From Candidatus Poseidoniaceae archaeon (lineage in GTDB: Archaea > Thermoplasmatota > Poseidoniia > Poseidoniales > Poseidoniaceae), in assembly GCA_028822845.1 (NCBI GenBank), contig JAPKCS010000006.1, positions 1 through 64,000 of the forward strand: a DNA stretch of 64,000 nucleotides. Direction: 5' to 3'. Shown here piece after piece: positions 2,452 to 14,884 of this stretch. The position numbers were made by a program, and so were the translations under genes. Position 1 is the first letter of the stretch. Each line of letters starts with the position of its first letter. The notes under the pieces are model-generated. The model had not been told where the DNA came from and searched no databases. It saw only the letters and a list, made by a program, of their open reading frames with translations.

Positions 2452-2826
2452 ATGACCGCACCAAGCAACCTCGTCTCGCTCAGAATCACTGAGGAAGACA
2501 TGGCCATGCTTGACGCACGTGTTGGCATGGACGGTGCTCGAAACCGCTCCGACGTCATTCGTCAAGCGATTCAGCAATTCCTCAACGGACAACCTTTGGT
2601 CCAAGGCATGGATTCGGTACGAATTCCTCTCGGTCATGGCGACAAGCGATCGCTTGGCCTCCTTTACGAACTCCAGGGTACGACCCCTGAGATTGCTGCC
2701 CAAGAAGGGCTTTCACTTTACATCGCAAACGCCGTGAAGGCGCATGCTGAAATGAACACACAACTCGAAGGTTTGCTGGTTACGGCCAAAGAATCAACGA
2801 TGCGACGCGAAGAATACCACGAATGA
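2452..2826 (+). CDS. ribbon-helix-helix (CopG/NikR-type) DNA-binding protein
   Basis: Residues 5-46 have the ribbon-helix-helix pattern: a short beta strand (LVSLRIT), helix A with acidic and Met/Leu positions, then NRSDVIRQAIQQFL as helix B. This fold binds DNA as a dimer through the paired strand. The remaining 75 residues are of unknown type and could be a ligand-binding or oligomerisation part. The start is supported by a GAGG about 9 nt upstream of the ATG and an ACTATAAG TATA-like element near 2407. Its target is unknown. The hairpin-rich stretch immediately downstream contains palindromes that could be operators, which is speculation. Confidence 0.75.
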   Translation: MTAPSNLVSLRITEEDMAMLDARVGMDGARNRSDVIRQAIQQFLNGQPLVQGMDSVRIPLGHGDKRSLGLLYELQGTTPEIAAQEGLSLYIANAVKAHAEMNTQLEGLLVTAKESTMRREEYHE

Positions 2827-2853
2827 GTGGGTGAGAGTGCTGGAGGGGATGGA

Positions 2854-3042
2854 ATGAATTGGCAAAACGAAACGGATGAAACTCGTGGAGCCACCTTCAA
2901 TGCTGTACAGGAAATGTCTAGCCTGTATGGATTAGCCTCTTTGCGTCTGCGTGCCCGTCTTGCACGCACTGGACAGAACAACCCAACACACCTCCCCCCG
3001 AAAGACGGGCGGGGGGACTTTGATTCCACCCCAGCTTGCTGA
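2854..3042 (+). CDS. possible 62-residue ORF inside the hairpin-rich region
   Basis: An ATG at 2854 is preceded by GGAGGGG with good Shine-Dalgarno spacing and opens a 62-codon frame ending in TGA at 3040-3042. The product would be Arg-rich in the middle with no recognised domain. Codons such as CGG, GGG and CCC cluster in its second half, unlike neighbouring genes, because they lie in the stems of strong hairpins. The frame stays open for another 43 codons after the TGA. The coding status is doubtful, and RNA structure explains the base composition better. Confidence 0.25.
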   Translation: MNWQNETDETRGATFNAVQEMSSLYGLASLRLRARLARTGQNNPTHLPPKDGRGDFDSTPAC

Positions 3043-3120
3043 GTTGGTGGTTCCCACGTGCCCAGGTCCCCCACGATCCTGGGCACAATCATTCACTGCA
3101 GTGTAAACGCTGCATCACTT
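2854..3120 (+). ncRNA. candidate structured RNA: string of six perfect or near-perfect hairpins
   Basis: The 337-bp gap between the RHH gene and the helicase holds consecutive inverted repeats. They are 2906-2911/2922-2927 (6 bp), 2948-2954/2962-2968 (7 bp), 2993-2999/3011-3017 (7 bp), 3026-3030/3046-3050 enclosing 3032-3035/3038-3041, 3058-3066/3078-3086 (9 bp, perfect) and 3098-3103/3108-3113 (6 bp with one G-T). Helices occur about every 30 nt with short loops, which is typical of a folded RNA. I could not match it to RNase P RNA, SRP RNA or a known riboswitch. The strand is assumed from the neighbouring genes. It may be a separate transcript, a long 5' leader of the helicase, or a set of DNA-level operators. 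Confidence 0.35.
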
Positions 3121-3163
3121 CCAGCCCCCAATCCTTTAGAGGTGTCGGCAGCGAACCTAAACT

Positions 3164-5227
3164 ATGGGTCGTGAAGGGAATCAAGCGACCTCCGAGGAAT
3201 TTCCTTTCCTTGCCCACAAAAAACCACGCCCTGGGCAAATCGAAATGATTCATGAGTCACGAGAGGCGCTACGTAACCAAGGCCATCATCTCGCAGCAGC
3301 ACCAACTGGTATTGGGAAAACAGCTGCTGCCCTTGCAGCAGCGATTGAAATCTCTCGAGCGAGCAGCCATCCATCACCAATCCTTTTCCTCACTGGTCGC
3401 CAATCACAACACACCATCGTTGTCAACACCGTTCGCAGCATCAATGAACGCCTGCCCGAGGGTGAACGACCGGTCAGTGTCGCAGACATCATTGGTCGAA
3501 ATGACATGTGCAAAGACGTCGATGTGTTGTCAGGGAAATGTTTCTGTGAACAAGGCACCTCTGACGACTCGAAACAATCCGGAAGAGAAGAAGTGAGAAA
3601 CTTCATCCTTCAATTCCCACGGCACGTCGATGAAATCATTGACAAAAGTAGGGTCTGGGGCGTTTGCCCGTGGGCTATTTGTCGATCTGCCGTCAAGGAT
3701 TCTGATGTCCTCATCTGCGATTATAATCACGTATTTGCCGAAGCCGTGCGGGAAAAATCACTCGGACCGATGAGCGTTGACTTGGAAAAATGTATTCTTA
3801 TTGTGGACGAAGCCCACAACCTGCCAGACCGAATTCGGATGAGTATGGAGCGGATCATCACGCCAACCATCGTCCGAAGCGCTGAGGTTGACCTCAATGA
3901 GTATGTTGAAACCTTGGCGGAAACATACCGTAAAAATGCCTCAAACTCAACTCTAAAGGAGTTGGATATGGCCACATGGGCTTGGGAAATTATCAAAATT
4001 GCCCGAGTAAAGACGGCTGACTTGTTTCGTCAATTGCATACAGACCTTCTCATGGACAAAGAGGAATCCCATGTGGAAGTGAAACGCTTGCTCGATGTCA
4101 TTCATCGTTCGTGTGACGAGTATGAAGGCGTCACTGGACAGAAAACCCTGTCTGAACAACCTCCTGCTGGCAAGGCAGAAGTGCAGCGGAAACACCGCTT
4201 AATTGGCTTATCTGAAATTTTACTCAAGGTCCAAATTGACCAAGAAGCCGGTGATGATGAAGAGGACAGTGAGATCCATGCCCACCGCCTGGGACACATC
4301 TTGAAGATCATTGAATCCTATGGTGACACCCCGGCTTTGAGTTTGGTGTTTAGCACCAAAGGCAAGGAAGGGAAAATCACATCCCATCTGCTCGATCCAG
4401 GACTTGTTTCTGGACCTTTGTTCGCTTCAACAAAAGGCTCCATCCTCATGTCTGGAACCTTATATCCTCCGCAAATGTATGCAGACATACTCGATTTGCC
4501 CAAAGAAAAAACCACGAAAACCGCTTATGATTCACCGTTTGCAGGAGAGCGAAGACCGGTGTTGGTTGCAGGTGACGTCACCACGAGGTACGCTCAACGT
4601 TCAGCAGACATGTGGGCGAAAATACGTGCTCACCTCCAAGCTCTGATCGATGAAACACCAGGTCATCTTGCAGTGTTCTTCCCTTCATACAAAATAATGG
4701 AAGACGTCCTTGGTGACAGGGCGTTCAAGGGAGTGACAAAAACAACCGAGAGCCGTGATTGGAGCAAACAGGACATTGATTTAATTGTCCCGACTCTGAA
4801 GGAAAAGAAGGAAAAGAAGCAGCGGGTTATGCTGTGTGGCGTCTATGGTGCCCGTTTGTCAGAAGGTATCGATTACAACGGTGGTATCCTCGATGCAGTG
4901 GTGTGCATCGGTATCCCAAATGCACCACCATCGGTTCTTTCCGAATCGTTGAAGGCGTACGCTGGAGAACGGTTTGGCAAAAACAATGCGTGGCGATACA
5001 CCGTCACTCAACCAGCCATCAATGCGGTTCTTCAGGCCATGGGCCGACCAATCCGTTCAATCGGTGACCGAGCATTGGTCCTCCTGCTCGATCAGCGTCA
5101 TACAGATCGCACCTATGCCACATGCTATCCAAAAGACCTCAGAATGAACGCAACCAACACCCCAATGACCACAGCGAGTTTCGCCCGTCGGTTCTTTTCA
5201 CGGGTCCACACCCTTGATGAAGTGTGA
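3164..5227 (+). CDS. XPD/DinG-family superfamily 2 DNA helicase with Fe-S cluster motif
   Basis: An ATP-dependent 5'-3' DNA helicase of the Rad3/XPD/DinG group, acting in repair or in resolving replication and transcription blocks. The 687-residue sequence shows Walker A PTGIGKT (47-53), a Cys set fitting the 4Fe-4S domain (C116, C126, C128, C168, with C173 extra), the DEAH box VDEAHNL (214-220), the GTL segment MSGTLYPP in the second motor domain, and motif VI QAMGRPIRS near the C-terminus. The ATG at 3164 is preceded by a weak TATA-like CTTTAGA about 30 nt upstream. Whether it is the XPD orthologue or a separate DinG-like paralogue cannot be settled here. The following small gene begins after 31 nt and is probably co-transcribed. 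Confidence 0.88.
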   Translation: MGREGNQATSEEFPFLAHKKPRPGQIEMIHESREALRNQGHHLAAAPTGIGKTAAALAAAIEISRASSHPSPILFLTGRQSQHTIVVNTVRSINERLPEGERPVSVADIIGRNDMCKDVDVLSGKCFCEQGTSDDSKQSGREEVRNFILQFPRHVDEIIDKSRVWGVCPWAICRSAVKDSDVLICDYNHVFAEAVREKSLGPMSVDLEKCILIVDEAHNLPDRIRMSMERIITPTIVRSAEVDLNEYVETLAETYRKNASNSTLKELDMATWAWEIIKIARVKTADLFRQLHTDLLMDKEESHVEVKRLLDVIHRSCDEYEGVTGQKTLSEQPPAGKAEVQRKHRLIGLSEILLKVQIDQEAGDDEEDSEIHAHRLGHILKIIESYGDTPALSLVFSTKGKEGKITSHLLDPGLVSGPLFASTKGSILMSGTLYPPQMYADILDLPKEKTTKTAYDSPFAGERRPVLVAGDVTTRYAQRSADMWAKIRAHLQALIDETPGHLAVFFPSYKIMEDVLGDRAFKGVTKTTESRDWSKQDIDLIVPTLKEKKEKKQRVMLCGVYGARLSEGIDYNGGILDAVVCIGIPNAPPSVLSESLKAYAGERFGKNNAWRYTVTQPAINAVLQAMGRPIRSIGDRALVLLLDQRHTDRTYATCYPKDLRMNATNTPMTTASFARRFFSRVHTLDEV

Positions 5228-5804: not shown

Positions 5805-8800
5805 TCAACGGGGAGGTACCTTGGTTAATCCAGAGATTTCAGTCCCCATTCGCTCCAAAGCCTGTTGGGCAGTGGCTTGGTGTTGTGGTCCAAGTTCCTC
5901 TCGACTGTACCTTGCTTGCTCGAACATACCGTCCAGTGCAACCAATGCGTCGTCTGAGATATGGGGCAATGCTTGACGAATTGCCATCTCAAACTCACGA
6001 ACTGTTTCGAAGTCACGTCGCAAGAATCCATGTTCTTGGAAAGCGCCACAGAGGTTTTGGTAGCAGGTGAAGATGGCTTCACGGACCGAATCACCTGCTG
6101 CAAGGAGTTCAGCGGTGTATGCGAAAATTTCAGCAGCTTCCTCAATCAATTCCTGAGACTTCTTACGACGGTACAGCACCGTTCCGGCTGCAGCACCTGC
6201 AACAATCATCAGTGCAATGATGTACACCCACATTGGAACAGGTTCCGAAATTTCGGTGTATTGGTAGTTCGGTGACCAAGGTGATTCAGAAGCAAGGAGG
6301 TCAAACGCAGTACGGCTCTCATCGGAGAGACGAGGATCATCGATGATGATTTCCAAGTAGACTTCGCCCCAAGTGCTCGCATCCCCATAAGGTGGGTCCG
6401 AATTGAACTCGAACGTAGCAAAACCATTCTCATCGGTCAGAGGTTGAATTGGTGTTGATAGCTGGGAACCATTTTGATTGTACAGGTAAACAGTGACCTT
6501 GATGCCACCAATGCCTTGGTTGGTGTCTTGAGCAATGACGGTCACATCGCCGCCAATATCCTCGTTCTTATCTTCAACAACACTGTTGATGGAGACTTCG
6601 ATATCAGCGTTCACCTTGACATAAATCAGGTGACTCTCTGACGCCCCGTTAAGGTACAGAACATCGTTTCGAGGCGCATCGATGTGGAGGTATTGCCCAC
6701 CTGTTTGCAACCACGAAGGGGCTTGGCCATTCATCGAGAAGTTCCCGTTATTCCAAGCGATTTGGATGTTTTCTAAGCAACGAGCACCCTCACGGCTGGA
6801 AACGCAATCTGAACCGTTTCCTAAGAAGAGGGTGAGGTTGTTGAACACCTCGCCCAGGCCGCCGATTTCAGCGATTGAACCTGTGAGCACAATTGGAGCA
6901 AAGACATCGTCGCTGCGCACCACAATGTTCGATGAGGTACCATCGATGGTGATCATGGTGTTTGACCAAACCAGTGCCGTTGCACTCGAGGAAGCCTCAA
7001 GGTGGGCGCTGGTTCCTGCAAAGGCCACAGTCAAGGTATGTTCTCCTCGAGTGAGTTCCATTGTTGCAGGAATGATGGCCGTCCAAGATCCATCGCCAAG
7101 CGTTGTAACCGTAGCCATTTCGACATCATCGAGTCGCACACTTAGCATCATGGAAGCAAGACCGTCGTTGTTGACGGTGTCCACATCGAACAGGCGGCCC
7201 GAAAGGGTCCATGTGTCGCCACGAGTCGCGTCACGGCCGTCATCAAAGACAAGGGTCACATCTGAACGGTGAGCCAAGAAGAAGGTGGTGTTTCCAGCGT
7301 TGGAGCGGTAGTAGCCTTGGGCTTCTGCGCGTGCTTCGAGGGTATGGTTGCCAAACGAAAAGAGGTCAGGAACAGACCAATCAAAGGTGAATGCCCCGTT
7401 GGCATCTGTCAGAACACTTGCCAACAGAACACCCTCAACGGTGAGTTCAACGCTGTGGTTGGCGATCCCGAGCAGTTGATTGTCAACAACGGCACCGAAG
7501 ATTGTGATGTTCTCAGCAACGGCCACCGGGCTTTCCATACTCACAGTCACTTGGATTTGGCTGTAAATATTCCATGTCCCCATGGCTTCACTTGGCAGAT
7601 AGAAGGTTGTACCACTGAACCTTGTTTCAAGCGAAACAGGACCGAGGTCTGCATCTGCAGGCACTGGATAGATGGCGGTGAATGTACCGTTCGCATCGGT
7701 GGTGACGTTGGTCATCCACTCGCCGCCAAGCCAGACTTCAATCGTTAGGTTCGGCAAAGGAGCATCGACCAAGTCCAACAGACGACCCTGAATGGTCATG
7801 GTTGCTTCTCGGTTGACATCGCCACCGGGCGTGAGCAAGAGAATCTTCGTAGGCACACTCACATTGAATTCGACCTGATCGCTGCTTGGCAGATAATACT
7901 CAGGGTTGATTTGGTCGCCAACGCCAATTGGTTCGACCCAATCACGGCCGCCAAGGAAGCGGACTTCGATGATGTGGGCCCCTGCGCTTGTGTCTTCTGG
8001 CAACGTCCATCCGATGGTGAACGCTCCTGTCTGGGCATTGGTCTCAATGCTCGACACGGGTACGCCATCAACGAGAAGGTGGACAACAGCCATCGACGGT
8101 ACGCCGTTGATCATCAGTGGGAGGCCTAAATCATCCATCAAGGTCCCATTCACATTGAATGCGTCACCTGCGACGAGAGTCGATGGTGCTTCGGTGATGC
8201 TGAGGTTCGTCTGGCCAAGAACGACAAACTGAGTCGTGGTATTGGAACCAATAAGACCGGTTGTACCGGCGGTTCCAGCGAACTCAACAAACAAATCAGC
8301 TGGTCCAACGCTCAAGTTGGCTGGCACATTGATGGTTCCGAAAGCAGTTCCATTCTCGAAGGTGGTGAAGGTCGACAGAGCGAAACCTGGCAAACCAACC
8401 AACACTTGTTGATTCGGGACTGCAGCGTCGGTGTTGTCCCTTAGCAAAACTTGGAAGAACACAGTGTTCCCTCGTTCAGTTCGATCATTGAGCGATGGGG
8501 CGCCAATACCGTCCAGGCTTGGTTTGATGAACATAAGCGTGGTAAATCCACGGCTGTCAAACGAATCGTTATCGGTCGAGCCAACATAGTAATTGATGTT
8601 CGGGATGAAGGTCGCTTCGATGGTGTTGTTCCCTGCTGGGAAACTGGCACCGAGGGTGATTGTAGCGTTCCAGATACCACCGACTGCAACGGTACCGCCG
8701 CTTACGGTGAAGCCAACGGGTTGGTCGTTGATTGAAAACAAGATATTCGCGGGTAAAAGCGCTCCATCACGTCGTTCAAGACCAGATCCATTGTCACTGA

Positions 8801-11800
8801 CAATTGTACCTGTGATGTCAAACGAAGTACCAGCGACAGGGTTTGCCGCGATTGGGTCGATGATCAGAATGGTCGTGGAACGGATGGTAATCGAAGACAA
8901 GTTGACGGTTGTGGCAAGCAGATCAGAAGAGCCATTGAACACCAAAGAAACCGTGATCAGGCCCAATGGGTGACTGGTTGGAATGAGGTAACTGAAATTA
9001 GCGAAACCTTCGCCATCCGTTTGCGTACCTGGCAACCAAGTCTCATGGAAGTTAATATCGACATCAAACGCACCAAGCGGTAAGAAGAGGTTTGAGGATT
9101 CGACCAAACGAGCCGTAATGTTGACTTCCTCGCCTCGATTTACAATGATTGGGTTCAGCGGTTGTAGGTTTTCAAACCTCGACACACCCATGACAAGTAT
9201 ACCATTTTGTACGCTTGCTGTCAGATAGAACGGTGAAGAACCATTGATCAATGAAATCACGAGGACCTTATTGCCACGGAGTGTCCCATTGCCTGCTGAA
9301 TCGGTTGGTATGCTCATGTTGAAGGTACCATTTCTTGAGGTCTGATACTTAGGAACGAGGAGCTCTTCGGGGTTGCTCAGCCAAAAGGCGTTCAGTTCCA
9401 CTGGAGCAATCAAGGGCCGTGTTGCATCGTCGCCGTCCAAGACTTGACCGAGAACATTGAAATTGAGTCCCGCTGTCACGGTGCTTGGAATGCTGTCAAT
9501 TCTGAAATTACTTTGGACCTGAACCGTCACATTGACCAGGGAAGAGTTCCCAGTACGTCGACTGTTACCGGATGCTAACGGGTCCGAAAGGTCATCATAG
9601 ACAATCATCAAGACATTGTAGTACCCTGGTGCAATACCAGAGGCAGTCCAACCCACAGAGGCAAAGCCTGAAGGATCTGAAATTCCAGTTCCGATGGACA
9701 CATTGGTGTTTCCATAATCAAAGATGAATTCCACAGACGCATCGCTGATGTTCGAATCATCCGCTACGTCGGTCACTGTCGCATTGAAATTAAGTGTACC
9801 ATTGACTTCAACGATTAGGTTTGGTTGCTGAGCCACCACGACAAACTCTGATTCAATACCAACCAAAGTGGAAGGAACCGTCGGGGTTGCAGGGGGAAGT
9901 GTGGTGTCGAAAAAGCGGTAATAAGGGCCGCCAACTGGGGCTTGGGTGTCAAAATCCATGCTGAGTATGAACTCGTATGTATTGGACGGGCTGGTCACTG
10001 GAACGGTGAAACTCAGGTTGTATTCACTGGTGGTGTTGTTCAGGAGTCCCTGGGACAAATCGATTGGTTGACCTTCGATGGTGGTCATGATCAATGAAAG
10101 CATTGTGATGTTATCACCGAGCACCTTTCTGTTGGTGTGGACGGCATCAAAGATGTCGCCAAAGATGTAGGTTGAGTTTCCGATGTGTGTCCAATCCTGT
10201 GCAAGCGTGATGTTCCAACCAACTTCGGCAGCAACTCGAACGGATTCTTGACCGGTTGATGGTTGGTAAAGATCTGAACCATTGAAGGAGATGTCCAAGG
10301 GGTAATCACCCGCATACATGCTCGCATCAAGCAACCAATTTAGAGTGATTGTTTCACTTTCTGGGTCGACGGTTGTGTTCACCCATGTCCCATTGAATGT
10401 GAAATCAAAGTTTCCAGAGGCAAGCAAATCGGTGGCGACGCCACGGTGGTCGGTCATCGAGACCAACACAACAGCGTCTGTGTTGCGCATTTGAGAAACG
10501 GAGAGTGAACTGAATTGAAGCCAACCTCGCAGAAGGTATGGGTTTCCTGTCGACATGTTTGCGTCATCGGTTGCTTCGATGCTATCGGGGAAGAATCGAA
10601 CCTGTAATTCGACTTCACCAGCAGCAATTTGTGCATCAGCGGCTGTGAGCAAATGTTGGACCGAGAAGACCCCATTGACGCTTTGATTGAACATTTCAAT
10701 CCAATCAGAGCCGCTGCCGTTCGAGCGCATTGAGAGCGAAAGGTTACCCGTCATGGCTACCGGACTGGCGCCTGAAGTGACGGCTGAACCGTTCAGCCAG
10801 ATGTTGTCATCGATGAGGAGAATGCTTCCATTGGCCAAGGGTCCTTCGAGGGTTGCGGTTAAGGTCGGTGCATCCCGAACATCGAGGAGGATGGATTTGG
10901 TGGAAGGTTGAAAGTGGAACTGCGGCGGTGTGATGCTTGGTTCGGAACTGTCTTGCCAACCGGAAAAGCCCAAGGTAGCCGAGAGGTTGGTTTTGGTTTC
11001 CAGCGGATCCAACTCCACTTCGATGCTCCATGAACCATCAAAGCCAATAGGTGATGTCAAATTCACGACGCCAGTCACGGAGGAGGTGAAACTCAACCAA
11101 ACTTCAGGGACAGTCGCAGCTTCGGCGAGGGTCGAAATGACGCGTACAGGAGCACTCTCGAGAGAAAGCATGCCCGTGATGATGGTCGTTGCGCCAGCGC
11201 CGACAATCGGTGCATTGATCGCGTTTGGTCCAGTATGATTGATCACCGAATCATCAGTGACGTTGATGAAGCCATCAAAGATGATCCCATCCTCTGAGAC
11301 ATAGCCCGATTGGAGGTGCTTGATGACAATGCGATGAATACCTGGTGCCCCTGATTCCAGAGGGCTACCAAAAATTTCGAACGTTCCGTTTGCATCGGTG
11401 ATGACGGCACCAAGTTCGTAATTGGCGATGGCTGCAGGACCTGGGACACCTGCTGCTTCCGCGAGAGGTACAAGGTAGCCGACCATCGGAAGCTCAGGGA
11501 TTGGCGTTCCATTTTCTGAGAACCGAAGTTGTCCAGTGACGTTCAAGGTCGATGTACCATCCCGGTCCCATACAAGGGAGGAGATGGTTTGATTGACGAT
11601 TTCAATTTCTTCAGCAGGTGGGCACGCATCGAATGCAATCCATCCGAGTTCGGTGTCCCCGTTCGCACTGTTTTGCTGCAAACGTACTTCGCCCCAGGTC
11701 GTTCGATCTTGAGGGAAGACGGCGTATCCGTCTCCGTTCCATGTGCCTCCAGCAAAGCCACTGACATAGCGAGCAGGAAGTCCAGCTAAGCGTGCCATTG

Positions 11801-14729
11801 TGACGAACGCCGTGTTGAATTCATTGCATGTACCTTCCTTGGTTGCTTCAACCAAGACCACACTGAGGTCTTCCGAGGATGGAATGCCAGAGCCGTTGTA
11901 ATTGCGCTTGAATTCAGTGGATGAATTGCCTTCTGCAAGGAAGGTTTGCAGGGCTAATGCAGTATCGTAGGCGTTTGTGGCGCCAGAATCACTGATCACA
12001 CCATTGGTGGTGTTGAACAGCGAAGAGCGTGTGTTGTTGAGGTCGGTTAATTCTGCAGGCGTGTTAAGTTCGTAAGCAAAACCTGCTCCTGGAACAGTCG
12101 TTGATGCTAGCGAGGTCCAATCAAAGTAGAATTCAGGTTGTTGAATGAACACCTCTTGAATCGGACCTTCGATAATGTTGACATTGTGAGTGTCGTTTGA
12201 CCGTTCCAACTGGGCAGCAGTATCCACGTAGAAGGATATGTTTGACCAAGAGGCCGGGAGGACTAAGCCACCGGAAATGGATGGATTGTTGTAGGTAATC
12301 AGCCATTCGACCGTGTCGTTGGCAAACGCCATATCAGAAAGGTGAGTGAAATTGGAGGAAGGCAGAACCACTGGTTCGCTTGGATGGACTTCTGCGATGT
12401 GAGCATAAGCGGTTCCAGTGTAGAAGTCGCTTGTGTACTGGCGCCAACGTTGGGTGCCATCCACGTCAACAACACCACTGCTGTTGTTGGCCCAGAAAAC
12501 GACTTCAGAAGCGATCAGGTCATCGGTTGGGTCGAAGGGGTCGAAAGGAGAACCGAGGCAATTGATGATCCAAAATTCTTGACTGCATTCCAAGCCGTCG
12601 ATCATACCGCCACCATCGGTGTCAGGGTTGGTCCAATCCGTACCGGTTTGGTTTTCAACGGCATCGGGTATCAGGTCGCCATCGAAATCTGATGGCAACA
12701 AATCGTCAGAAGGATCGTTTTCGGGGTTGGTGCCATCGAAATATTCCTCTCGATCGGCAACACCACCAGAGTCAGTGTCGATTGAAGCATCATCGGTCAC
12801 CCAGGCATCAAGGGAGCCGTTGGTGATGCCAATGTACACCAGATCGCAACCCGTGCTCGTCTCGAAGTAGTTGTTCAGTCCGTCTTGATCATCGTCAAGG
12901 AGGTTCGTGCACGGTTCGTTCGGATCGGTGTTGCCAAAGACTTCTTCGAAATCATTCGCCCCGTCACCGTCGCTGTCGACAAGGGTCGGGTTGGAAAACC
13001 ATCCGAACGTACCCAGCAACTCTTGCCAGTCTGCAAGACCATCGCCGTCTGAATCGGCATAATCGTCGTCACAGTATGTGCGTGAGGAACCGATGGTTCC
13101 ATCGGCGGTTGCATCGGTGTGACAGAAGGAACCGTTGCGGTTGGCAACTTGAGTTGCCGTTCCAGGAGCCGTTGACACACCTTGGATGAGGTCATTGACC
13201 ACCGTTGCATACGCAAAGGGCGTCCACGTGCCTGAAATGTTGAACCAACCGACACCACCACCTGGATTGAATCCACTGCCATCTGCAACTTCTAATTGGC
13301 CATTACCGTTGTTCCATGCCACGACTGTGGTTTCGAAGTTGACAAGGGAATCACAAGGATCGGTTCCGTGAGAAACGTTCTGTTCATCGCCATCGGCAAT
13401 GCCACCAAAATCAGTATCAGCAATGTCCCAAAGGGTGCATGAAAGGTTTTCTTCCCAGTTTTGGATACCATCGTTGTCTTCATCGCCAGAATCTTCACGA
13501 CGGGTTGGATCGGTTTCACCAGGATCCACGATTCCGTTCGAATTCAGGTCTTCGTCACCATCATCAAACGCATCACCGTCAGTGTTGTTGTTTCGAGGAT
13601 CGGTTGCTTGAGGAGGGTTGCCGTATTGACCAGCAACTTCGACACCGTCATTGATGCCGTCGTTGTCTGTATCTGAAGAGGTTGGGTCGGTGAGCAAAGT
13701 CAAGGCTTCCAATGAATCGTTTAATCCATCACCATCGGTGTCAGCCCGTTGTGGGTTGGTTGAGGTGATACCATCGACTTCTGCAGTGAAAGTGGCGCAC
13801 CCACCAGGCCCGATACCGTTCACAGGGTCACAAGGCGATGTGGTTTCAGTGACGAGCCCATCTGGACCGTTTCTGAAACAAGGAGAGGTACCGCACATGG
13901 TCGTCCATGTCGGATTGATGTATTCCATCAGGTTGCTGAGGCCGTCACCATCGGGATCTCCGTTTGGTCCGTCCGCGTTGGTTGGGTTTGTGGCATTGAG
14001 GCCGTTTGCAGCCTCCCATCCATCATCCATACCATCGCCATCTGTGTCCCAGCCAGCAACGTCTTCGTCTTCGATACCGTCACCGTCATCGTCGTTGGAT
14101 GAACAATCTGCATCCCCATCGTTGTCGGGGTCTGCTGAGTCGACAAAGCCGTCTTTGTCATCGTCAAAACCATTGGTGCAAATGTTGCCCATTGGATCTT
14201 CATCGCATAGGATCACTGAACCGGTACCATCGCTGCCGATGTCGCCGCAACCTGGTCGGTTGTACTGAAGAGCGCCTTCTTCATTCCAATCGTTGACTGG
14301 AACCGTTCCGTTCCACCAAACGCCGTTGTCGAGCACGCCAGTGGTGCTGGCAACGTCCCAGCTTGTGGGTTGGAGGTAGGAATATTCCTGCAAGTTCGAC
14401 ATACCGTCACCGTCTGGATCACCGACTGCGCCATCCCCACCACTGCTGGAGAGAGGATCCAGTCCATACCGCCATTCCCAACCATCTGGAAGTCCATCGT
14501 TATCGGAATCAGGATCATTGGGTTGGGTGTTCATGAGGTATTCAAGTCCGTAAGTCAAACCGTCGCCATCTTGGTCTGATGCCGCAAGAGCATCGAATGA
14601 AATCCATGGGATTGAAGCAAAGGTCGAGAGCACCATGAGCGCAACCAAAGCGATCGATTTGGCGGTGTCGCGGTGCTCCAGAATCTGCCATTGAGAGCGC
14701 GGCTTCGACGGGGTTGAAGGCGTACGCAT
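5805..14729 (-). CDS. giant surface protein: calcium repeats, transglutaminase-like domain, Ig-like repeats, DUF4129-like tail
   Basis: About 2974 residues from the ATG at 14729; a TTG at 14792 would add 21. Order: basic N-terminus and signal/anchor segment (about 25-50); many thrombospondin type-3-like acidic repeats of the DSDGDGxxD kind to about residue 750, expected to bind calcium; a transglutaminase-like core with Cys968 in GTCNEF and Asp1034 in AFDACP; then a long run of Asn/Thr/Ser-rich beta domains (carboxypeptidase-regulatory or Big-like) to about 2800; one transmembrane helix (about 2831-2853); and a 120-residue cytoplasmic tail resembling DUF4129, a usual partner of transglutaminase-like proteins. 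The conserved His of the HAW motif is Thr (TTWGEV, Thr1010), so peptide crosslinking or hydrolysis activity is doubtful. A role in cell-surface adhesion or structure is inferred. A 976-residue surface protein lies just upstream on the same strand. Confidence 0.85.
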   Translation of the reverse strand: MRTPSTPSKPRSQWQILEHRDTAKSIALVALMVLSTFASIPWISFDALAASDQDGDGLTYGLEYLMNTQPNDPDSDNDGLPDGWEWRYGLDPLSSSGGDGAVGDPDGDGMSNLQEYSYLQPTSWDVASTTGVLDNGVWWNGTVPVNDWNEEGALQYNRPGCGDIGSDGTGSVILCDEDPMGNICTNGFDDDKDGFVDSADPDNDGDADCSSNDDDGDGIEDEDVAGWDTDGDGMDDGWEAANGLNATNPTNADGPNGDPDGDGLSNLMEYINPTWTTMCGTSPCFRNGPDGLVTETTSPCDPVNGIGPGGCATFTAEVDGITSTNPQRADTDGDGLNDSLEALTLLTDPTSSDTDNDGINDGVEVAGQYGNPPQATDPRNNNTDGDAFDDGDEDLNSNGIVDPGETDPTRREDSGDEDNDGIQNWEENLSCTLWDIADTDFGGIADGDEQNVSHGTDPCDSLVNFETTVVAWNNGNGQLEVADGSGFNPGGGVGWFNISGTWTPFAYATVVNDLIQGVSTAPGTATQVANRNGSFCHTDATADGTIGSSRTYCDDDYADSDGDGLADWQELLGTFGWFSNPTLVDSDGDGANDFEEVFGNTDPNEPCTNLLDDDQDGLNNYFETSTGCDLVYIGITNGSLDAWVTDDASIDTDSGGVADREEYFDGTNPENDPSDDLLPSDFDGDLIPDAVENQTGTDWTNPDTDGGGMIDGLECSQEFWIINCLGSPFDPFDPTDDLIASEVVFWANNSSGVVDVDGTQRWRQYTSDFYTGTAYAHIAEVHPSEPVVLPSSNFTHLSDMAFANDTVEWLITYNNPSISGGLVLPASWSNISFYVDTAAQLERSNDTHNVNIIEGPIQEVFIQQPEFYFDWTSLASTTVPGAGFAYELNTPAELTDLNNTRSSLFNTTNGVISDSGATNAYDTALALQTFLAEGNSSTEFKRNYNGSGIPSSEDLSVVLVEATKEGTCNEFNTAFVTMARLAGLPARYVSGFAGGTWNGDGYAVFPQDRTTWGEVRLQQNSANGDTELGWIAFDACPPAEEIEIVNQTISSLVWDRDGTSTLNVTGQLRFSENGTPIPELPMVGYLVPLAEAAGVPGPAAIANYELGAVITDANGTFEIFGSPLESGAPGIHRIVIKHLQSGYVSEDGIIFDGFINVTDDSVINHTGPNAINAPIVGAGATTIITGMLSLESAPVRVISTLAEAATVPEVWLSFTSSVTGVVNLTSPIGFDGSWSIEVELDPLETKTNLSATLGFSGWQDSSEPSITPPQFHFQPSTKSILLDVRDAPTLTATLEGPLANGSILLIDDNIWLNGSAVTSGASPVAMTGNLSLSMRSNGSGSDWIEMFNQSVNGVFSVQHLLTAADAQIAAGEVELQVRFFPDSIEATDDANMSTGNPYLLRGWLQFSSLSVSQMRNTDAVVLVSMTDHRGVATDLLASGNFDFTFNGTWVNTTVDPESETITLNWLLDASMYAGDYPLDISFNGSDLYQPSTGQESVRVAAEVGWNITLAQDWTHIGNSTYIFGDIFDAVHTNRKVLGDNITMLSLIMTTIEGQPIDLSQGLLNNTTSEYNLSFTVPVTSPSNTYEFILSMDFDTQAPVGGPYYRFFDTTLPPATPTVPSTLVGIESEFVVVAQQPNLIVEVNGTLNFNATVTDVADDSNISDASVEFIFDYGNTNVSIGTGISDPSGFASVGWTASGIAPGYYNVLMIVYDDLSDPLASGNSRRTGNSSLVNVTVQVQSNFRIDSIPSTVTAGLNFNVLGQVLDGDDATRPLIAPVELNAFWLSNPEELLVPKYQTSRNGTFNMSIPTDSAGNGTLRGNKVLVISLINGSSPFYLTASVQNGILVMGVSRFENLQPLNPIIVNRGEEVNITARLVESSNLFLPLGAFDVDINFHETWLPGTQTDGEGFANFSYLIPTSHPLGLITVSLVFNGSSDLLATTVNLSSITIRSTTILIIDPIAANPVAGTSFDITGTIVSDNGSGLERRDGALLPANILFSINDQPVGFTVSGGTVAVGGIWNATITLGASFPAGNNTIEATFIPNINYYVGSTDNDSFDSRGFTTLMFIKPSLDGIGAPSLNDRTERGNTVFFQVLLRDNTDAAVPNQQVLVGLPGFALSTFTTFENGTAFGTINVPANLSVGPADLFVEFAGTAGTTGLIGSNTTTQFVVLGQTNLSITEAPSTLVAGDAFNVNGTLMDDLGLPLMINGVPSMAVVHLLVDGVPVSSIETNAQTGAFTIGWTLPEDTSAGAHIIEVRFLGGRDWVEPIGVGDQINPEYYLPSSDQVEFNVSVPTKILLLTPGGDVNREATMTIQGRLLDLVDAPLPNLTIEVWLGGEWMTNVTTDANGTFTAIYPVPADADLGPVSLETRFSGTTFYLPSEAMGTWNIYSQIQVTVSMESPVAVAENITIFGAVVDNQLLGIANHSVELTVEGVLLASVLTDANGAFTFDWSVPDLFSFGNHTLEARAEAQGYYRSNAGNTTFFLAHRSDVTLVFDDGRDATRGDTWTLSGRLFDVDTVNNDGLASMMLSVRLDDVEMATVTTLGDGSWTAIIPATMELTRGEHTLTVAFAGTSAHLEASSSATALVWSNTMITIDGTSSNIVVRSDDVFAPIVLTGSIAEIGGLGEVFNNLTLFLGNGSDCVSSREGARCLENIQIAWNNGNFSMNGQAPSWLQTGGQYLHIDAPRNDVLYLNGASESHLIYVKVNADIEVSINSVVEDKNEDIGGDVTVIAQDTNQGIGGIKVTVYLYNQNGSQLSTPIQPLTDENGFATFEFNSDPPYGDASTWGEVYLEIIIDDPRLSDESRTAFDLLASESPWSPNYQYTEISEPVPMWVYIIALMIVAGAAAGTVLYRRKKSQELIEEAAEIFAYTAELLAAGDSVREAIFTCYQNLCGAFQEHGFLRRDFETVREFEMAIRQALPHISDDALVALDGMFEQARYSREELGPQHQATAQQALERMGTEISGLTKVPPR

Positions 14730-14884
14730 GGTTGTCACAGCGGTTGGGCTGTTTTGATGACTGATAAGGGAAATGGTACGATGTTCATACAATGCTCACC
14801 AGCAAAAAGAAACACTGTCCATCAAGAAATGAAATTTTACCAGCGCAGCACCACGAATAGACCGGTTGAACGGACCCCTTTTCT

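Follow-up and report, generated by a model that had tools for sequence, protein, structure and literature searches.

The window analysed here is a stretch of 64,000 nucleotides of DNA from a Candidatus Poseidoniaceae archaeon, whose genome is referred to as G000. In one part of the window, a gene encoding a ribbon-helix-helix (RHH) protein is followed on the same strand by a short leader, a small open reading frame (ORF), a series of hairpins, and a gene encoding a helicase (Table 1). The stop codon of the RHH gene directly abuts the structured element. In comparison with NCBIfam models, the RHH protein has weak similarity to aCcr1 (E 3.5e-4, below the cutoff) and scores far below the cutoff of the CdrS model (13.2 versus 100 bits). 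The proteins aCcr1 and CdrS, which the RHH protein weakly resembles, are archaeal cell-cycle regulators, and the RHH protein is conserved throughout the order. The helicase matches the NCBIfam model rad3 with an E-value of 2.6e-52, but its score does not reach the cutoff. A DNA search identified the stretch between the RHH and helicase genes in 35 of 36 genomes of the same genus, including that of the window itself, and in no other genus. The order of RHH gene, element, and helicase gene is preserved in all 34 same-genus genomes that contain the RHH gene; in genome G027, the contig begins within the element. The genomes compared are mostly metagenome-assembled.

Table 1. Features of the locus, with positions in the window.
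Feature	Position	Strand	Description
RHH_1 (ribbon-helix-helix) gene	2452-2826	+	124 aa; Pfam RHH_1, E 3.9e-7
Leader	2830-2852	+	Near-invariant SD-like blocks GGTGAGAG and GGAGGGGATGG; just 5' of the small-ORF ATG
Small ORF	2854-3042	+	62 aa; ATG start, TGA stop; arginine-rich core GLA(S/A)LRLRARLAR.G
Hairpin 1	2905-2928	+	GUACAGG / CCUGUAU; inside the ORF; 7 of 7 pairs changed on both sides; 90.4% of cells paired
Hairpin 2	2948-2968	+	UGCGUGC / GCACGCA; covers the RARLAR codons within the ORF; 91% of cells paired
Hairpin 3	2993-3017	+	C-tract / G-tract; inside the ORF; double changes in 5 of 8 pairs; 89-90% of cells paired
Hairpin 4	3026-3050	+	Spans the small-ORF stop codon; double changes in 3 of 6 pairs
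Hairpin 5	3058-3086	+	3' UTR; loop contains CCCCAC; 97.3% of cells paired; double changes in 8 of 8 pairs
Sixth hairpin	3098-3113	+	Present in G000; retained by only part of the genus
Promoter-like element CCAATCCTTTAGAGGTGTCG	3128-3147	+	Outside the hairpin array; near-constant distance of ~30 nt before the helicase ATG
XPD/DinG-type helicase gene (Rad3-like)	3164-5227	+	687 aa; Helicase_C_2, E 2.7e-27; DEAD_2, E 2.3e-13

The preliminary description of this DNA reported six hairpins beyond chance expectation between the RHH and helicase genes. This region of the window contains four perfect hairpins with stems of at least 6 bp (2906-2927, 2948-2968, 2993-3017, and 3058-3086), compared to a mean of 0.71 in shuffled sequences (P = 0.005), and three with stems of at least 7 bp, compared to 0.18 in the shuffles (P = 0.0025). 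Folding against shuffled controls also came out in favour of structure: the minimum free energy of positions 2854-3113 on the plus strand is -95.1 kcal/mol (z = -3.24), and only one of 200 shuffled sequences is equally stable. The minus strand, with a z of -1.39, is not outstanding. The excess over chance holds for five hairpins (2906-3086), whereas the conservation of the sixth is limited as given in Table 1. The placement of the hairpins between the two genes has to be amended, since three of them are inside, and a fourth extends over the stop codon of, a conserved small ORF that was missed in the preliminary description. The perfect run of hairpin 4 is only 5 bp long, yet the hairpin is kept in relatives: 75% of the cells are paired in a gappy alignment, and clear individual hairpins can be distinguished in other genera.

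The pairing of the stems is preserved among related genomes. In alignment A2, which contains 50 sequences, 90.2% of the cells of hairpins 1-3 are paired, compared to 33-57% when the partners are slid, and in alignment A3 the corresponding values for hairpins 3-5 are 88.5% and 34-55%; the scored structures were derived from the window sequence and the alignment consensus, which biases these percentages in their favour relative to the slid versions. The covariation is 0.405 for hairpins 1-3 and 0.288 for hairpins 3-5, whereas the controls reach at most 0.124 and 0.156, respectively, so that the signal exceeds both shuffled and slid controls. The slid control, which is the safer of the two, keeps the relatedness of the sequences that shuffling removes, and kinship inflates pair counts. 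Hairpin 2 has double changes in two of its six pairs; because it is nearly invariant, it is less informative and represents the weakest statistical case. Three C in the loop of hairpin 5 are invariant, and both sides of a candidate pairing between a GGGG in the leader and this C-rich loop are nearly invariant. With a covariance model of hairpins 3-5, 65 of 146 genomes of the order each gave a single strong locus; all 65 belong to the same family, and one genome contains a second, weak match (E 0.0013). The stems in the aligned relatives keep their pairing by compensatory changes, the absence of which had been named in the preliminary description as a refuting outcome. In the aligned sequences, these changes show that the five hairpins are maintained as plus-strand RNA across Poseidoniaceae (Marine Group IIa).

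The assignment to the plus strand is based on the kinds of mismatches and on folding. Non-Watson-Crick positions in hairpin 3 comprise 13 G-U versus 2 A-C, and those in hairpin 5 comprise 11 G-U versus 6 A-C, with several of these located at the ends of the helix. A start-proximal G/C hairpin from the sister family described below contains 248 Watson-Crick, 23 G-U, and 0 A-C pairs, counted over distinct sequences. The preponderance of G-U over A-C points to plus-strand RNA and not to DNA. In each of 16 representatives, the plus strand is more stable than its shuffled versions, with a mean z of -3.27, compared to -1.31 for the minus strand. The preliminary description had also considered a palindromic array of DNA operators for the RHH regulator, an idea to which the inverted repeats and the adjacency of the RHH gene lend themselves. 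However, the stems differ in sequence between genera while their pairing is kept, with mostly G-U and not A-C deviations; the arms do not repeat a single common site; and repeated conserved half-sites symmetric on both strands were not found. An operator array is thus extremely unlikely.

The proposal of an undescribed structured RNA agrees with the covariation, with the strand asymmetry of the wobble pairs, and with the Rfam searches. In Rfam 15, the only match of the whole window at the gathering threshold is a tRNA, a lax search of positions 2700-3250 returned a single chance match (mir-5890, E 4.1), and the elements of eight relatives have no match. Archaeal RNase P RNA (RF00373) was rejected as a candidate, and the genome's own copy is located elsewhere (G000:C39:1-271). 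A long-range helix of GAGGGGAUGG with CCAAUCCUUU that would close the structure was likewise discarded after inspection by eye, without scoring: genus g13 swaps the 3' element while the 5' element is unchanged, and several genomes have CC replaced by CG without a change of the partner.

The small ORF is shown by comparison of reading frames to be maintained across species. Its frame is open in all 73 usable genomes, which represent eight genera, and it contains no stops in 4681 codons, compared to 114 and 231 stops in the other forward frames. The spacing from the ATG to the conserved motif RATTCCA has seven values, each of them a multiple of three, and nearly all internal length changes of the ORF are multiples of three. 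The stop codon is TGA in 47 genomes, TAA in 21, and TAG in 5. The frame, start, stop, and insertions and deletions thus behave as in a conserved coding gene, with G008 as the one exception. In this apparently single-cell assembly, the G-run of hairpin 3 is longer by one G, which shifts the frame; the additional base may reflect an assembly or sequencing error or a real loss. Substitution patterns provide moderate support for coding: among the six frames, the mean BLOSUM score is best for frame 1, corresponding to the mildest amino-acid changes, and one reverse frame has a synonymous fraction slightly above that of frame 1. The protein constraint is weak outside the core LRxRARxAR, as judged from a pN/pS of ~0.6-0.7. 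A profile of the small ORF matches 100 of 244 genomes of the order. On the opposite strand, a reverse ORF of 124 aa (2718-3092, minus strand) overlaps the element, and one reverse frame over the small ORF is open in 51 of the 73 genomes, probably by composition.

Constraint on the protein and constraint on the RNA coincide. In four genome pairs, the synonymous divergence of the small ORF is 0.032, 0.114, 0.254, and 0.477, compared to 0.194, 0.434, 0.579, and 0.779 for the RHH gene and 0.281, 0.671, 0.747, and 0.781 for the start of the helicase gene in the same pairs. Synonymous change in the small ORF is 1.6- to 6-fold below that of the RHH gene, as would be expected if silent sites were restricted by RNA structure. 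The ORF is also more stable than synonymous-codon shuffles in 16 of 16 representatives (mean z -2.23, 40 shuffles each). Conservation of codons instead of stems had been named in the preliminary description as an outcome that would speak against a structured RNA; codons and stems are both conserved. Conserved structure and ORF almost certainly exist in the same stretch. A structured RNA without any coding function, its ORF being accidental, would be compatible with the low synonymous divergence, the weak protein constraint, and the frameshift in G008, but it is very unlikely in view of the frame being open in every usable genome, the spacing in threes, the variation of the stop only among stop codons, and the presence of a small ORF with a matching motif at the same place in the sister family.

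The hairpins had alternatively been put forward as a long regulatory leader of the helicase mRNA, and the helicase gene is indeed directly downstream in same-genus genomes. However, the hairpins belong to the separate small ORF, and the promoter-like element CCAATCCTTTAGAGGTGTCG is positioned 3' of them. The element is nearly invariant within the genus and present as a single copy in G000. It looks like the promoter of a possibly leaderless helicase mRNA. It is not a general promoter motif of the window, as no common motif was found upstream of 42 ORFs. Because of this conserved element before the helicase ATG, and because another ORF is located downstream in some members of the sister family, a function as the 5' UTR of the helicase mRNA is highly improbable.

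A related arrangement is present in a sister family, which is probably Thalassarchaeaceae. Directly after the stop of the RHH gene, its members have similar leader blocks and a small ORF, which usually starts with MH and contains the motif GF.GLR.RA[RK]. A profile built from nine sister-family proteins matches 78 of 238 genomes searched. Comparison of the profiles of the two families aligned 17 columns around GF.GLR.RARL with an E-value of 2e-4 and a probability of 46%; the small ORFs of the two families are probably homologous, though the link between them consists of a short core and the shared place. The hairpins differ between the two Poseidoniales families, whereas a small ORF and hairpins after the RHH gene occur in both, and the adjacency to the RHH gene is kept. 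Within the genomes compared, the arrangement of RHH gene, small ORF, and hairpins is order-wide. Several sister-family genomes have a different ORF after the element, and the stretch retrieved from them contains no match to the helicase. In many members, the stop codon is also followed by a hairpin. In the sister-family elements, a 3' hairpin is preceded by CACACACACC and often followed by ACCCC; this hairpin is apparently absent from members with ORFs of ~35 aa. In genus g4 (G038, G057, G121, and others), the sister-family profile crosses an in-frame TAG, and the ORFs are probably shorter. A sample of the phylum outside the order contains no match except for one doubtful one (E 0.009). The locus is probably important, because it is present in single copy and conserved across two families.

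The small protein matches no family of Pfam or NCBIfam above the curated cutoffs; of 18 members compared with Pfam, 17 have no match and one has an E-value of 0.067. AlphaFold predicts one long helix with low confidence (pLDDT 58). HU proteins are on top of the profile searches of the PDB, with non-significant E-values of 0.065 to 0.8. The segment iGlaaLrlRARlArdG..np aligns with the nucleic-acid-binding arm of HU (PF00216), IGFGNFEVRERAARKGRNP. However, only ~30 residues align, and the small protein lacks the rest of the HU fold, so that it does not contain the full HU domain. No members of the HU family were found in the window's own genome. The sequence similarity to the HU arm is weak and serves as a lead only. 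The small protein and the structured RNA are candidates for a new small-protein family and a new Rfam entry, respectively.

The reading that we prefer, although tentatively, is that the element is a structured mRNA of a small arginine-rich protein, the translation or stability of which would be controlled by the RNA structure. A single transcript, presumably shared with the preceding RHH gene, would contain the SD-like leader with GGTGAGAG and GGAGGGGATGG, in which the columns GTGAG and GAGGGGATGG are invariant in alignment A2, followed by an ORF of ~60-67 codons. The hairpins would run through the ORF, over the stop codon, and into the 3' UTR of the same mRNA. The control would most likely be autogenous: the basic protein, whose core has a weak resemblance to the HU arm, would bind the hairpins of its own mRNA and, when bound, may limit the loading or passage of ribosomes. 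Several points speak against this reading. The protein constraint is weak, and the RNA might be the main product; a single, strictly conserved binding site is hard to reconcile with the unlike hairpins of the two families; and the frameshift in G008, the low confidence of the AlphaFold model, and the lack of significance of the HU resemblance also count against it. A broader formulation, possible but doubtful, is that of an order-wide archaeal RNA with joint selection on a small basic protein and on a hairpin array spanning its ORF. The peptide would bind its own transcript or a trans-acting form of it, and together they would make up a self-contained regulatory unit of protein and RNA attached to an RHH regulator.

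The main rival to control of the small protein's own mRNA is a dual-function RNA, which would encode the small protein and also act in trans, for instance by means of the C-rich hairpin 5 loop. The strong constraint at the nucleotide level combined with the weak constraint on the protein is consistent with such an RNA, as is hairpin 5 itself, which is outside the ORF and has a conserved loop and a covarying stem. However, the element always adjoins the RHH gene, no promoter of its own was identified, and the hairpins of the sister family differ; a trans-acting RNA appears rather unlikely. It is less probable still that the structure serves the processing or stability of the RHH operon mRNA, whose folded 3' end would keep it apart from the helicase unit, the ORF being a passenger. 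The position of hairpin 5 between the small ORF and the helicase promoter-like element would fit such a role, and so would the hairpin after the stop in many sister-family members, but this leaves unexplained the hairpins 1-3 inside the ORF and the kept frame, and sister-family members with short ORFs have no clear 3' hairpin.

The element resembles mRNAs under autogenous control, for example ribosomal protein mRNAs, in that structured mRNA adjoins or overlaps the sequence that encodes a small basic protein. It differs in that its hairpins cross the ORF and the stop codon and have no match in Rfam, and the binding of the protein is predicted. Dual-function small RNAs that also encode a small protein, for which the archaeal literature was searched (PMC11456600, PMC12482152), resemble it as short RNAs that are at once structured and coding, whereas the present element is part of a conserved context after an RHH gene and its action in trans is hypothetical. 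A small RHH regulator is also part of the CdrS-ftsZ2 locus of Euryarchaeota, a conserved group of archaeal genes (PMC7439475), whereas the present RHH gene has the small ORF and then the helicase gene downstream of it. Literature searches of partial coverage found no earlier report of the element. At this locus, selection clearly acts on one sequence stretch at two levels, as code for a previously unnamed tiny protein and as a folded RNA, and the locus is therefore well suited for studying structured coding RNAs in archaea. The Marine Group II archaea, which are abundant in surface oceans, have not been cultivated, and to our knowledge little is known about their regulation at the RNA level.

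Elsewhere in the window, the minus strand contains a very large ORF of 2995 aa (5805-14792) with repeated Asp-rich sequence, which likely encodes a cell-surface protein.
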